Source: Ruminococcus sp. | Lineage (GTDB): Bacteria > Bacillota > Clostridia > Oscillospirales > Ruminococcaceae | Direction of reading: 5' to 3' | Length of the DNA stretch: 64,000 nt | Assembly (NCBI GenBank): GCA_017960805.1 | Contig: JAGCYM010000092.1 | Span: forward strand, 24,818 to 88,817 | Shown here: one piece after another, positions 8,958-15,724 of the stretch | How positions within the stretch are numbered: the first letter of the stretch is position 1 | How the letters are laid out: every line of letters starts with the position of its first letter | Notes under the pieces: model-generated | Database searches by the model: none | The model's input: only the letters and a program-made list of their open reading frames with translations | What the model was told of the DNA's origin: nothing | Position numbers and translations under genes: made by a program

Positions 8958-8992
8958 GAAAAATGAAAGGCGCGGACAGCTGCGTCCGCGCC
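8958..8992 (-). terminator. Terminator after the dockerin-like gene
   Basis: GGCGCGGAC pairs with GTCCGCGCC on the minus strand, followed by TTTCATTTTT. It closes the radical SAM/dockerin-like operon. Confidence 0.85.
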
Positions 8993-9096: not shown

Positions 9097-9780
9097 TTAT
9101 TCTTCGGAAGGAACATCAGGATAAACGGGAAGATCATCCTGGCTGAGGACTCCTGCATCTACCTGCAGGACAGTCAGTGCGTCCATGGCTGTGATGCCGC
9201 TTCCGGGCTCATAGCAGTCTGCGTTGCTCTGCCCACTGCGAATCGGGTATTGGTCTTTGTTTGCGATGTACTGCAATATCGCAACAGAGTCAGAAACAGA
9301 GAGCTTTAAATCTCCGTTAGCATCTCCATATGGCGGCGGCGTTGTGACAGCATACATAGTACTTCCTTCTGTACGTGTAACTTCCCATTCAGTTGTTGAT
9401 TCGATTATATCACCAATGAGAGGTGTAGCTGTTGTCGTGCCTACCATAGTTGTTGTTGTATCAACGCATGTTCCTTCTGTTAGAGTTTCCTCAAATGCAG
9501 TAGTCGTAGTAGTTGTGGTCGTGTTGACCTGAGTCCCCATTAAATATGTGCCTGTTGTTGTCGTAGTCGTAGCCTCGAATGTGCCTTCCAGAACTGTAGC
9601 CTCTTCAAATTCCGAGCGGTCAAGAGCAGTAGTAACTGGTTCTGTTATTGCATCAGGATTAATTGCAACACCAGCTGTACGGACCTGTTCCTCTGCAGAG
9701 GAAGCGTTTGCGGCACCGGCAGAAGCACTGACTGCGGCAGTGGCTAACAGTGCTGCAATTTCTTTTGTGAATTTTCTCAT
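9097..9780 (-). CDS. Secreted Thr-tract protein with degenerate dockerin-like repeats, coupled to a radical SAM enzyme
   Basis: A 227-residue exported protein. Residues 1-26 form a Sec signal peptide (basic start, Ala-rich core, cleavage near ANA-SS). Next come several Thr runs (six at 71-76, eight at 87-94, shorter ones near 108-117). The C-terminal 75 residues contain two dockerin F-hand-like repeats: YGDANGDLKLSVSDSVAILQYI at about 151-172, with good calcium-loop spacing, and NADCYEPGSGITAMDALTVLQ at about 186-206, whose loop is atypical. Only two Cys are present (105 and 189). The ATG overlaps the stop of the radical SAM gene (ATGA), and the GGAGG needed for its translation lies inside the end of that gene. 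It may be the enzyme's substrate or simply a dockerin protein in the same operon; the tight coupling favours a functional link. Confidence 0.88.
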   Translation of the reverse strand: MRKFTKEIAALLATAAVSASAGAANASSAEEQVRTAGVAINPDAITEPVTTALDRSEFEEATVLEGTFEATTTTTTGTYLMGTQVNTTTTTTTTAFEETLTEGTCVDTTTTMVGTTTATPLIGDIIESTTEWEVTRTEGSTMYAVTTPPPYGDANGDLKLSVSDSVAILQYIANKDQYPIRSGQSNADCYEPGSGITAMDALTVLQVDAGVLSQDDLPVYPDVPSEE

Positions 9781-10760
9781 CCTTTCATACCTCCATTTTC
9801 TCTAGTTATTATTTCGAGTGCAGTTAGAATTTGCACTTGTTCTTCCATACAAGCGGCTTCCGAAATGTCTTTAAGTGTGCCTGTTGTTGCCATTTTCCTG
9901 CAGGCGCAGGAGTTACGACAATATTCTGCTATCTCGCATCCGCTGCAACGTTCTGAGCGAGCTGAATAATCGGGATGATTTTCTCTTGCCTTGTCAGCTC
10001 TGATACCAACAAAAATATCACCGCAGCGATATTCTGTCAGATTCTGGAACTGTACGCATGGGTAGAAGTTCCCATCCCAGTTTATGAATATCTTCTTTCT
10101 GCATATCTCGCACAAGTGCGTTTCCTTTTTTCTGATAGCATTCTTTTTGGTTTCAAGTTCAAATACGAACAGATTTGGTATCTCAGCGATCTTGCGCCAT
10201 TGTTCTCTAAGAATATCACCTAACCGGTCAGGATCATCAGTTACAAGGAAAGAATCCATTACTGCGGATACTTTTTTAACCCCCAGATTTTTCAGATATA
10301 AGACATTATCATACAGATCAGGAAGGGTCTGTTCAGTGTATACCAGTTGCACAAGAGTCCTTGGCTGGTATTTGAGCAGTATTTTCAGGTTAGAATCAAG
10401 TAATGAGGTATCGACTCCGCGTTCAGTACATTTGATACCGTCGTGAGACATATTGATGATTATGTTTTTCCTCTCAGCGCACCATTTGATAAACTCTTCG
10501 TCCAGAAGAGTACCATTGGTTGTGATGACGAAACGGTTAGCCTTGATCTTTTCGCAGTAGTATTTTACGATGTCCTTATAGAGGAGAGGTTCACCGCCAA
10601 AAAGATATACTGTATCCGCGTCATTACGGTTTATAATGAAATCGGATATCTTTTCTCTGGTTTCGTCACTTATTGAGCCGTATTCTGTATTAAGGTGCCT
10701 TTCATAGCAATAGCTGCATTTCAGGTTGCATTTGTTTGTAATGCTTATAGTATAGTCCAT
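9777..10760 (-). CDS. Radical SAM/SPASM-type enzyme (putative peptide or protein maturase)
   Basis: A 327-residue radical SAM protein. The [4Fe-4S]-SAM motif CNLKCSYC (Cys 11, 15, 18) is at the extreme N-terminus, followed by the GGEP motif (YLFGGEPLLYKD) and a TTNGT strand. The C-terminal third is Cys-rich: HLCEIC, NFYPC, YRC, then CSGCEIAEYCRNSCAC, and a last Cys near CMEEQ. This is the arrangement of SPASM or twitch auxiliary cluster domains found in RiPP and sulfatase/peptide-modifying enzymes. It is first in a two-gene operon and overlaps the secreted Thr-tract dockerin-like gene by four bases. Substrate and chemistry are not known. I infer post-translational modification of the partner, but a peptide elsewhere is also possible. 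Confidence 0.9.
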   Translation of the reverse strand: MDYTISITNKCNLKCSYCYERHLNTEYGSISDETREKISDFIINRNDADTVYLFGGEPLLYKDIVKYYCEKIKANRFVITTNGTLLDEEFIKWCAERKNIIINMSHDGIKCTERGVDTSLLDSNLKILLKYQPRTLVQLVYTEQTLPDLYDNVLYLKNLGVKKVSAVMDSFLVTDDPDRLGDILREQWRKIAEIPNLFVFELETKKNAIRKKETHLCEICRKKIFINWDGNFYPCVQFQNLTEYRCGDIFVGIRADKARENHPDYSARSERCSGCEIAEYCRNSCACRKMATTGTLKDISEAACMEEQVQILTALEIITRENGGMKG

Positions 10761-10801: not shown

Positions 10802-10830
10802 ATTATAATGATACACAATAAAAAAATCAA
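10802..10830 (-). promoter_or_regulatory. Promoter of the radical SAM/dockerin-like operon
   Basis: On the minus strand TTGATT (10825-10830), 17-base spacer, TATAAT (10802-10807), about 40 bases upstream of the start codon. The rest of the gap up to 11125 holds only this promoter and the terminator of the esterase gene. Confidence 0.7.
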
Positions 10831-12758: not shown

Positions 12759-13718
12759 TCAGAATGATGTCTTTATAATTCCGCGTTTTGCAAGCTGGAT
12801 ATACAGACGAAGACGAGCTTCATCCCTGCATTCCGGCTTCACCATATAATACATGTAGTGTTCCATCAGATTGAACAGGTCTATAGTTCTTCCTTCTATC
12901 TTGAACTGTTCAAATCCCATCGGTATATACTTGTCCCAGATCGCGTCAGGAGAAATATGACTGCTCAGCTTACTGCTTTCGAAGATTGTACGATCCATGC
13001 ATCTGCATCCGAAAATCGCTTCATTCTGATACTCAGCGTACTTCGGGAGCTTGGTGAAGTCAAAGTCGGTATTAGGGTGCTTCTTTATGTGCTCAGCGTA
13101 CGCAAACTGTTCTGCTCCGATCACACGGTAATGCTCGGAACGGAGTTTGCACTGCGGATTGCAGCACGCGTTTACAAGAAGCTCACATTTCTTCTTGTCC
13201 TGTATTTTTTCAAGTGCTTCAAAGTTGTTGTTCAGATCATAGTCTATTACGACAATATGATAATCCTTCCCGATCTCTTCATAGAGTTTGTCAGGATCGG
13301 TTATGCGCTTGCAGGTTGAGCTTGTTATCTTGTAGTTCGGATAGTTTGTACGTATATATTCTTCAAGTATCGGCGAAGCGACGATGACCTCATTCATGCC
13401 GTTGTCAGCTAGGTGCATTATCATATTGCAGTAGTCATCTGAGAGATGCTTCTTTTCAATGAGAGGGTTTGTGAAAGTGAAGCGGAGCGGTATCCCGCGG
13501 TCGTTGAATGACTTTATTACTGTCTTTATGAAATTCTTGTCGCAGATCCCGTACTGGAAGCGTCCGCCGTTCCAGATGGCGGGCGGAAAAGTTCCGTATA
13601 CTGAGGCTATCTCAACGCCTTCGCGGAAGTAGTCAGGAAAGAGCCTGAGCATTTCCGCGAAGATCATATTGAAACCGTAGTGCTTGCTGAAATCAGGAAG
13701 ATGAAAACGTGCTTTCAT
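12759..13718 (-). CDS. U32-like iron-sulfur protein, second of a tandem pair
   Basis: A 319-residue paralogue of the gene just upstream (about half of the residues identical by eye). It resembles the peptidase U32/UbiU-UbiV superfamily: a TIM-barrel-like run of strands, the Cys cluster LVNACCNPQCKLRSEH near residues 180-195, and the hallmark GFEQFKIEGRT near 270-280. In this superfamily such Cys bind an iron-sulfur cluster. Two further Cys (GCRC, near 235) are specific to this copy. The N-terminus RFHLPDFSKHYGFN and the segment STCKRITDP are shared with the partner. It lies nine bases after the partner's stop with AAGGAGC in between, so the two are made together. Function unknown; proximity to HydE suggests a redox or radical-related role. 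Confidence 0.75.
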   Translation of the reverse strand: MKARFHLPDFSKHYGFNMIFAEMLRLFPDYFREGVEIASVYGTFPPAIWNGGRFQYGICDKNFIKTVIKSFNDRGIPLRFTFTNPLIEKKHLSDDYCNMIMHLADNGMNEVIVASPILEEYIRTNYPNYKITSSTCKRITDPDKLYEEIGKDYHIVVIDYDLNNNFEALEKIQDKKKCELLVNACCNPQCKLRSEHYRVIGAEQFAYAEHIKKHPNTDFDFTKLPKYAEYQNEAIFGCRCMDRTIFESSKLSSHISPDAIWDKYIPMGFEQFKIEGRTIDLFNLMEHYMYYMVKPECRDEARLRLYIQLAKRGIIKTSF

Positions 13719-13727
13719 GGTTGCTCC

Positions 13728-14666
13728 TTATCTGTATGTGAGAGCGCCGCTGTTCTCAAGTGCCTTGAGCAGTGTAAAGCGTGCTTCGTCGCGGCATTCC
13801 GGTTTTGCCATATAGTACATGTATGTCTCAAGGATATTGAGTGCGCTTGCTGTACGTCCCTCGATCTTGAACTGCTCGAATCCCATGGGAACATATTTCT
13901 CCCAGATATCATCAGGAGAGATATGAGTACGAAGGTTTCGGATCTCAAAAAGTCCTCTCTGTGAGTAAGGACAGTCACGGAAGTGCTGAGGGTCATATTT
14001 ATCTGGATTGAAAGGCATTCCGGGATGCTTCTTTATGTGTTCGTTGTATGCTATCTGCTGTTCGCCGATGCAGTGGTAGTGTGCGGAGCGGCGGGGGCAT
14101 CCTGGCTCACAGCACGCGTTTACAAGAAGTTCGCAGTCTTCCTTGCGAGGCAGCTTTGAGAGCACATCGAAGTTGTTATTGAAATCATAGTCCACAACTA
14201 CGATACTGTAATCCTTTCCGAGTTCTTCCTCAAGCTTTACAGGATCAGTGATGCGTTTGCATGTTGAGCTTGTGAGCTTGTATTTAGGATAGTTCTTGCG
14301 GATATAATCCTCGAGCAGGGGAGAAAATACAATAGCTTCATTGAGTCCGTTGTTTGCAACATTCATTACCATATTGCAGAACGGATCTGAGAGATGCTTT
14401 TTCTCAAGCGCTGGATTCGTGAATGTAAATCTGAGCGGTATTCCACGGCTGTTGAACGCCTTGAGGACTTCCTTTACGTATGCGCTGTCGCATACACCGC
14501 CCTGTGTGCGTCCGCCGTTCCAGATCGATGGCGGGAATACACCGTAAAATGATGCGATCTCAACTCCCTCACGGAAAAACTCAGGTTTGTTCTTGAGCAT
14601 TTCCGCGAACATGAGATTCAGATGATAGCGTCCCGAGAAATCGGGGAGATGGAATCTTACTCGCAT
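13728..14666 (-). CDS. U32-like iron-sulfur protein, first of a tandem pair
   Basis: A 312-residue protein with the same architecture as its tandem partner: N-terminal RFHLPDFSGRYHLN, the STCKRITDP segment, the cluster LVNACCEPGCPRRSAH near residue 185, and GFEQFKIEGRT near 265. These fit the U32 superfamily (ubiquinone hydroxylation proteins UbiU/UbiV and RNA-modification proteins such as TrhP), although it is shorter than classical U32 peptidases and I cannot assign a subfamily. AAGGAG precedes the ATG, 20 bases after the hydE stop. It belongs to the end of the ilv/leu/nadA/hydE run. Alternative reading: a stand-alone hydroxylase- or sulfur-transfer-like enzyme. Confidence 0.75.
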   Translation of the reverse strand: MRVRFHLPDFSGRYHLNLMFAEMLKNKPEFFREGVEIASFYGVFPPSIWNGGRTQGGVCDSAYVKEVLKAFNSRGIPLRFTFTNPALEKKHLSDPFCNMVMNVANNGLNEAIVFSPLLEDYIRKNYPKYKLTSSTCKRITDPVKLEEELGKDYSIVVVDYDFNNNFDVLSKLPRKEDCELLVNACCEPGCPRRSAHYHCIGEQQIAYNEHIKKHPGMPFNPDKYDPQHFRDCPYSQRGLFEIRNLRTHISPDDIWEKYVPMGFEQFKIEGRTASALNILETYMYYMAKPECRDEARFTLLKALENSGALTYR

Positions 14667-14686: not shown

Positions 14687-15724
14687 TCAATTGATACAGT
14701 CGCCGCGCTCAATGGCTACTTCATAGCCGGCGGCTTCTATTCGTCTTTGCAGGCAGGTGCGGCATTCTGCGGCCTCCTCGCCTGTACATATCTTGTTATC
14801 ATAGAGCTCATATTTCTTCCGGACATTTACGGGAGAGAGATTCGGCATAACGACATTGCACCCGGTCTGCAGTCCGAGTTCACGTCCGTTCGGAGCGATA
14901 GTTCCGAGTGCTGTTGTAGCAGGAAGAAGTACCTTCGGGAACATGAGCCTAAGTATTCCGAGAAGTCTCAGTGTAAGCTCAAGCGTTCCGCCTTTTTCCT
15001 CTGCGAAAGGTGTGCAGTGGTGTGGCACAAAAGGTCCTATGCCTATCATCTGAGGCTTCAGGTCCTGAAGAAAGCGGAGATCTGCGATCAGGTGATCTGT
15101 TGTCTGCCCCGGCGCTCCTACCATGAATCCGGCTCCGACCTGATAGCCGAGAGATCGGAGATCATAGAGGCACTGCTTTCGGTGAGCAAGGCTCATTTCT
15201 GAAGGGTGAAGGCTTCTGTAAAGCTCTTCATCTGCCGCTTCGTGACGAAGAAGGTAGCGGTCAGCACCAGCTTCCTTCATGCGCTTGTAGCTTTCATAGC
15301 TTCTTTCACCGAGTGAAAGCGTTATCGCACAGTCAGGATATCTTTTTCTCAGTTCAGAGATCACATCACACATGAAGTCATCTGTAAATGAACTGTCCTC
15401 GCCGCCCTGCATAACGAATGTGCGGAAACCGAGTTCATACCCGTTTTCAGCGCAGAGCATTATCTGATCGCGTGTGAGACGGTAGCGTTCTGCTTCCCTG
15501 TTGCTGCGCCGGATGCCGCAGTACAGGCAGTCATTTCTGCAGTAGCTGGAGACTTCTATAAGGCCTCTGAGGAATACTTTTTTTCCGTAGTGCAGCTGAC
15601 GTGTTTCATCAGCTCGGATACGAAGAAGTTCTGCGGCTTCTTTGTCATCTGTCTCGATGAGTATCCTGAGTTCGTTGTCTGTAAGATCGGAAGTGCTGAG
15701 CAGCTTTTCTATAAGCTTTGTCAT
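14687..15724 (-). CDS. hydE: [FeFe] hydrogenase maturase HydE (radical SAM)
   Basis: A 345-residue radical SAM protein of the BioB/HydE group. HydE acts with HydG and HydF to build the H-cluster of [FeFe] hydrogenase. The SAM cluster motif is YCRNDCLYCG (Cys 62, 66, 69), preceded by GLIEVSSY. The conserved block GIGPFVPHHCTPF and the C-terminal TGCNVVMPNLSPVNVRKKY are typical of HydE. The length matches the family. GGAGG precedes its ATG, and the ATG is one base after the nadA stop. No hydG, hydF or hydrogenase gene is in this window. BioB is excluded by the HydE-type C-terminal block. Confidence 0.92.
   Translation of the reverse strand: MTKLIEKLLSTSDLTDNELRILIETDDKEAAELLRIRADETRQLHYGKKVFLRGLIEVSSYCRNDCLYCGIRRSNREAERYRLTRDQIMLCAENGYELGFRTFVMQGGEDSSFTDDFMCDVISELRKRYPDCAITLSLGERSYESYKRMKEAGADRYLLRHEAADEELYRSLHPSEMSLAHRKQCLYDLRSLGYQVGAGFMVGAPGQTTDHLIADLRFLQDLKPQMIGIGPFVPHHCTPFAEEKGGTLELTLRLLGILRLMFPKVLLPATTALGTIAPNGRELGLQTGCNVVMPNLSPVNVRKKYELYDNKICTGEEAAECRTCLQRRIEAAGYEVAIERGDCIN

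Follow-up and report, generated by a model that had tools for sequence, protein, structure and literature searches.

A radical SAM/SPASM enzyme strictly paired with a secreted dockerin protein in Ruminococcus: a candidate two-gene unit for modification of tandem glycine-centred motifs

We analysed a 64,000-nucleotide stretch of DNA from Ruminococcus sp. (GCA_017960805.1, contig JAGCYM010000092.1, positions 24,818 to 88,817 of the forward strand; hereafter the window), focusing on a gene for a radical S-adenosylmethionine (SAM)/SPASM enzyme and the gene that directly follows it, which encodes a secreted protein with a dockerin. According to the results, the enzyme very likely has this secreted protein as its dedicated partner. 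We further consider it probable (roughly 60%) that the pair is a maturation unit akin to those of ribosomally synthesised and post-translationally modified peptides (RiPPs), in which the partner would be modified at many sites in the cytosol independently of Cys, with its signal peptide doubling as leader, and then exported and docked. The features are listed below in window coordinates.

8969..8992, minus strand: terminator-like stem-loop 3' of the partner gene (consensus match only)
9097..9780, minus strand: gene for the secreted partner, 227 aa, with signal peptide, repeat region and dockerin
9136..9330, minus strand: dockerin of the R. flavefaciens group-1 type, partner residues 151-215
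9355..9678, minus strand: Thr-rich region with tandem PhixG motifs, proposed modification sites, partner residues 35-142
9700..9780, minus strand: signal peptide with n-region MRKFTKEI, proposed leader, partner residues 1-27 (cleavage site by eye)
9777..10760, minus strand: gene for the radical SAM/SPASM enzyme, 327 aa (open reading frame, Pfam/NCBIfam profiles and predicted structure)
9790..9794, minus strand: Shine-Dalgarno site GGAGG of the partner gene, read directly, within the codons for the C-terminal ENGG of the enzyme
10802..10830, minus strand: promoter-like site TTGATT-17-TATAAT (consensus match only)
11008-10971, minus strand: terminator-like stem 5' of the gene pair

The enzyme was scored as present at E<=1e-60 across 125 genomes of the genus. 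It was found in 34 genomes, and the partner adjoined it in all 34. Among 43 named orthologues of the enzyme (56-80% identity), the partner gene stood directly after the enzyme gene in every case, as it does in the window. The named relatives suggest a position of the window close to Ruminococcus flavefaciens. A DNA pattern for the leader MRKFTKEI was detected in 32 of the genomes, in one copy each and always beside the enzyme, while the remaining two enzyme-bearing genomes carried the one-residue variants MRKFIKEI and MRKFTREI in the same place. The pattern was absent from the 91 genomes that lack the enzyme at this threshold, and the reversed pattern gave no matches in the 125 genomes. Leader residues 1, 3, 4 and 8 were invariant in 44 sequences. 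Up to 6 kb on each side, as contigs allow, any further gene family was shared by at most 7 of the 44 loci, and then at varied positions, so the unit consists of two genes in varied surroundings. The initial annotation had proposed the partner as the companion of the enzyme and suggested a co-occurrence check, which proved strict; the outcomes that it held would speak against the proposal, namely enzyme orthologues paired with an unrelated short Cys-rich peptide or lacking the dockerin gene beside them, were searched for and not seen. Taken together, the pairing strongly suggests that the partner is the substrate of the enzyme.

The enzyme stop and the partner start share four bases (ATGA), an overlap already seen at first inspection and recovered here from both open reading frames, and of the 41 orthologues scored, 39 had a Shine-Dalgarno-like site no more than 18 nt from the start of the partner gene. 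Promoter-like sites (11 versus 6.1 ± 2.5 by chance) and terminator-like sites (3 versus 1.8 ± 1.4) in the region were not far above chance. The earlier description of a complete two-gene unit framed by one promoter and one terminator therefore stands on the conservation of the pair and not on these signal scans.

The linkers between signal peptide and dockerin were very divergent, as seen in the EEIPPLAGEPLPPDEFIEPTTV repeats at locus L093, in DEDMYEIGTTTSASL at L104 and in TTTTTTGTYLMGTQVNTTTTTTTT in the window. In an alignment of 43 partners with a mean column identity of 13%, Gly nevertheless occupied window residues 37, 103 and 123 in 93% of sequences. The feature conserved through these otherwise very different linkers is a repeated [LIVMFYT]-x-G-[TDVE] motif (the PhixG motif), present in 221 copies in 43 linkers versus 95.5 ± 8.2 in composition-keeping shuffles. 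In the window partner it occurs as TAGVAI, LEGTFE, LMGTQV, TEGTCV, MVGTTT and LIGDII, with a looser TEGSTM making seven glycine-centred motifs. The linkers were also enriched in PPxxG (92 versus 4.9 ± 2.1 in shuffles) and in Asp six residues C-terminal to the motif Gly (129 versus 23.0). In Thr-rich interiors, motif density was 3.93 per 100 aa for the partners and 0.56 per 100 aa (5 in 900 aa) for a set of 22 non-partner proteins with Thr linkers, taken from loci of the genus. These results point, with moderate confidence, to the tandem PhixG motifs as the modification sites.

The initial annotation had placed the target of the enzyme elsewhere, in the Thr tracts or in a second, Cys-containing dockerin repeat that it took to be atypical. 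Runs of at least three Thr do occur in 36 of the 43 partners (four in the window partner, in line with the three or more first noted), and Cys is present in 30 of the 43 dockerin regions. However, 7 partners have no run of three Thr, and Cys is absent from 24 of the 43 linkers and 13 of the 43 dockerin regions, so Thr runs and Cys are excluded as the general target; the linker of the L093 partner has neither. Other proteins of these genomes, moreover, carry plain Thr linkers nearly devoid of the motif, and the second dockerin repeat is of ordinary form, since it recurs, with Val replacing Cys, in further dockerin proteins of the window's own genome. The seven lipoproteins scanned beside related enzymes of another family (f67, below) gave no Dockerin_1 match. 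Action on Thr tracts or on the dockerin Cys is thus very unlikely.

The window enzyme matched Pfam Radical_SAM (PF04055; 63.2 bits, cut-off 29.5) and SPASM (PF13186; 22.0 bits, cut-off 21.5), which bears out its first description as a radical SAM protein with a Cys-rich SPASM-like end. The CxxxCxxC motif of the radical SAM superfamily is formed by C11, C15 and C18, and the SPASM pattern CX9-15GX4C - CX2CX5CX3C - C by C217/C235, C272/C275/C281/C285 and C304; this motif and the seven-Cys spacing were found in 44 of the 44 enzymes checked. The predicted structure suggests a SPASM maturase fold, in which the first strand of the radical SAM barrel begins at residue 2 and nothing lies N-terminal to the barrel; the enzyme therefore appears to have no N-terminal RiPP recognition element (RRE). 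The scores fell far short of the SCIFF maturase model (TIGR03974; 80.9 bits, cut-off 425) and the anaerobic sulfatase maturase model (TIGR03942; 54.4 bits, cut-off 349.45), and both identities were rejected. The best NCBIfam match was the PapB model NF047865 (112.1 bits) and the nearest solved fold was the thioether enzyme CteB, which, with the Asp enrichment past the motif Gly, would fit a PapB-type ranthipeptide maturase forming Cys-to-Asp/Glu thioethers. That identity is extremely unlikely: the score lies far under the cut-off of 340, the linkers do not show the CX3D/E substrate pattern, more than half of them contain no Cys, and a Cys lies no further than 8 residues away from only 15 of the 221 motifs.

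The partner begins with a Sec-type signal, judged by eye, in agreement with the earlier reading, and ends in a dockerin. Although its Pfam Dockerin_1 score was below threshold (14.5 versus 22.9), the AlphaFold model (block-averaged confidence, pLDDT, 79-94 across residues 151-220) showed the type I dockerin fold with two loop-helix repeats. Its best PDB match was 5m2o_B (TM score 0.79 by target length, root-mean-square deviation 1.3, 34% identity over 68 columns, E 2e-3), from the complex of an R. flavefaciens group-1 dockerin with ScaB cohesin. Dockerin_1 matched 36 of the 43 partners at E<=0.1 and scored above cut-off in 7 of 10 partners scored. Cohesins are encoded in 124 of the 125 genomes, the window's own included, though the gene pair itself occurs in only about a quarter of the genus. 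The initial view of a dockerin-bearing, cellulosome-type protein is thereby upheld: sequence and model suggest that the partner is a cellulosome component, with cohesin binding predicted.

Many partners (L082, L095, L101 and others) carry varied extra sequence C-terminal to the dockerin, several without a name; SH3_3 was found in 3 of the 43 partners and FG-GAP in 2. Zinc-ribbon or LIM-like Cys clusters (CxxC...CxxC) lie among the repeats of the L108 and L110 partners, and a similar cluster lies within the Thr linker of another protein of the window's own genome (L185, G000:C34).

Enzymes from other families with 26-30% identity to the window enzyme likewise had secreted neighbours. In family f67, of the same class, a related enzyme was present in 57 of 115 genomes and formed a distant clade (30% identity to the window enzyme). 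We sampled 46 f67 loci from 60 matches, 44 of which yielded the enzyme by filter, and counted the motif [LIVMFY]-x-G-[TDVEGAM] in neighbouring lipoprotein-like open reading frames of <200 aa. At least one adjacent frame with at least two motifs was found in 35 of the 44 loci, and the 62 pooled frames held 165 motifs versus 55.4 ± 6.7 in shuffles. Taken singly, 6 of 11 f67 lipoproteins were enriched at p<0.05. A leader, MKI-x-P-x-K-x-YKKPLYAIG and variants, was common to 43 of the 62 frames (29 of the 44 loci). The repeats EPTTAGVMIPTED, PTLAGDVYVPES and PILAGEIYLPEAE at L301 closely resembled those of the Ruminococcus partners, as did the repeat EEVATAGVPALTEEL at L172 in another family, where the count alone was not significant (3 versus 1.2). 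Common descent of the motif is plausible.

Two further stretches were observed in secreted neighbours of related enzymes: an HGxGxGSxGC...PxFLSEEEA-like stretch at L188, L189, L190, L258 and L259, and an HHGGxGxPxYxVxLTEQEAL-like stretch at L114, L192 and L257. None of those scanned matched a Pfam or NCBIfam profile above cut-off, and these proteins perhaps represent a second substrate type.

Based on these features, we propose the following route. The enzyme would be translated first, with the ATGA overlap and the Shine-Dalgarno site inside its gene coupling synthesis of the substrate beside it. Lacking an RRE, the enzyme would read the conserved n-region MRKFTKEI in the cytosol; our confidence that recognition is through the signal peptide is moderate. 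The tandem glycine-centred motifs would serve as cores to be modified one after another, after which Sec would export the partner, the signal peptide would be removed, and the dockerin would attach the protein to a scaffoldin cohesin. Export and docking are expected from the domains of the partner, and because it would dock in this way the product would remain a modified protein and not a released peptide. In the broad sense of RiPP, the locus holds a linked maturase and a ribosomal precursor with a conserved leader and core.

The chemistry is the weakest step. We suggest that each motif would undergo a Cys-independent two-electron oxidation (a cross-link or dehydrogenation, -2 Da) at Gly or its neighbours. 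Among the remaining options around Gly, an oxidation, a cross-link or an epimerisation, all Cys-independent, we favour the two-electron oxidation, at less than even odds on its own. A Val/Ile cyclopropyl synthase, like TvgB on TVGG repeats as described in PMC9062424, would need Val or Ile before Gly. These precede Gly in just 65 of the 221 motifs, where Ala is commonest (77) and Met and Glu also occur, so a TvgB-type product cannot be general; in the f67 leader family the position is held by Ala, Asp, Glu, Gly, Met or Ser in 117 of 120 cases, and we regard this product as highly improbable. An epimerase placing D-residues beside each Gly with the mass unchanged would be multi-site, Cys-independent and tolerant of variable residues around an invariant Gly, and is somewhat less improbable, though still quite unlikely.

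Several observations weigh against the proposed maturation unit. Only the Gly is invariant in the motif, so no clear chemistry is indicated. The shuffles count related linkers as independent. A search with the L093 repeat, whose 21 matches (in 20 of the 125 genomes) all lay at the enzyme-partner locus, was insensitive: it failed to find 14 of the 34 partners, including that of the window, and hence excludes only close copies elsewhere. Beyond f67, 0 of 14 secreted lipoproteins beside related enzymes were enriched at p<0.05, so a universal presence of the motif in the wider enzyme group is not supported. Control lipoprotein-like frames neighbouring SCIFF maturases showed a far smaller excess (70 versus 48.6 ± 6.1, highest shuffle 67) that still beat every shuffle, so part of the f67 excess is nonspecific. 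The Ruminococcus enzyme clade sits on a long branch whose placement the tree does not settle, and the resemblance to f67 may therefore be convergent.

AlphaFold also placed beta strands across the repeats of the window partner (68-80, 83-96, 108-118 and 128-138; block pLDDT 51-71), which fits an unmodified structural role. The repeats might accordingly form a folded or polymer-forming, bactofilin-like beta structure with Gly at turns, the enzyme modifying something else or a single site. Hydrophobic residues at -2 and +3 of the motif, regular spacing in some partners (22,22,22,22 in L093; 18 then 21-22 in L088) and a sub-threshold Bactofilin match in one f67 lipoprotein (14.2 bits, cut-off 27.9) are consistent with this. 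However, strand confidence is low, most of the 32 linkers with measured spacing are uneven (coefficient of variation 0.32 at the median; spacing range 4 to 74), and the motif tracks the enzyme gene; the top PDB matches cover the dockerin only, and the absent repeat match proves nothing. We consider this reading unlikely, the uneven spacing and the tie to the enzyme gene weighing against it as a full account; strands that are also modified are possible.

Other radical SAM genes were observed nearby and in the genus. In the window, a tandem pair of clearly similar proteins, 319 and 312 aa long (12759-14666, minus strand), lies beside a radical SAM gene (14687-15724) that we take to resemble HydE. 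A separate cluster of the same genus has two tandem radical SAM genes (L169, G031:C30, 7000-11200; L170, G004:C136, 126-2455), to which L169 adds a subtilase-like gene (identified by eye) together with three short Cys-containing peptides in tandem; it looks like an ordinary RiPP cluster. At L173 (G002:C30, 4335-5720, minus strand), a radical SAM gene lies downstream of a gene for a 61-aa, very Cys-rich peptide.

In open-licence literature, with subscription papers outside the search, no title or abstract dealt with a radical SAM enzyme paired with a dockerin protein, and no radical-made modification of a cellulosome-type protein came to light. If the proposed maturation unit is correct, it would represent a radical-made enzymatic modification of a cellulosome-type protein, linking RiPP chemistry to the degradation of plant fibre in the rumen. 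The pair would also allow a SPASM reaction that acts on repeats and needs no Cys to be studied in a simple two-gene setting, with dozens of enzyme-substrate pairs available in nature for comparison, and would offer a test case for a Sec signal peptide serving as maturase leader. The broader claim is of a new Cys-independent class of radical SAM maturation on tandem PhixG motifs. Its products would stay on the cell surface for good, docked on the cellulosome in R. flavefaciens and carried by lipoproteins in the second family, with the secretion signal also serving as leader and the modified repeats forming structural or binding material. This claim is tentative and falls a little short of an even chance.

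Among known systems, the unit is of the kind of a SPASM maturase with a tandem-core substrate, with new chemistry as a possibility. CteB (5wgg, 5why) has about 94 extra N-terminal residues compared with the window enzyme, and SCIFF substrates are Cys-rich, unlike the partner linkers. The anaerobic sulfatase-maturating enzyme (anSME; 4k36-4k39) is a SPASM enzyme of similar fold that acts before sulfatase export; it modifies one site per sulfatase, and the residue after its YPC cysteine is an Asp, which we take to be catalytic, whereas Val (30) or Ile (14) stands there in all 44 enzymes here. The R. flavefaciens group-1 dockerins (5m2o) share fold and sequence pattern with the window partner, which differs in having PhixG repeats and no recognised catalytic domain.

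PapB is a SPASM enzyme of similar length (NF047865 has 330 positions) with a multi-site substrate and provided the best family match; according to PMC9413430, it requires Cys and Asp/Glu, which it joins, whereas most linkers here have no Cys, the substrate is a secreted dockerin protein and the model score is far lower. TvgB, according to PMC9062424, acts on a substrate of tandem short Gly-centred TVGG motifs without requiring Cys, converting each Val to cyclopropylglycine (-2 Da); it belongs to a five-gene cluster with an oxidase and peptidase/transporters, while only two genes recur here, and Val precedes Gly in TVGG whereas this residue varies in the partner motifs. Bufferins and other proteins modified by multinuclear non-haem iron-dependent oxidases (MNIOs) start as RiPP-like precursors that carry Sec signal peptides, lipoproteins and long forms among them; for bufferins, preliminary evidence of the authors places the signal peptide within the recognition sequence (PMC12452194). 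They differ in that their iron oxidase is unrelated and in most cases has a partner protein, and in their Cys-based motifs.
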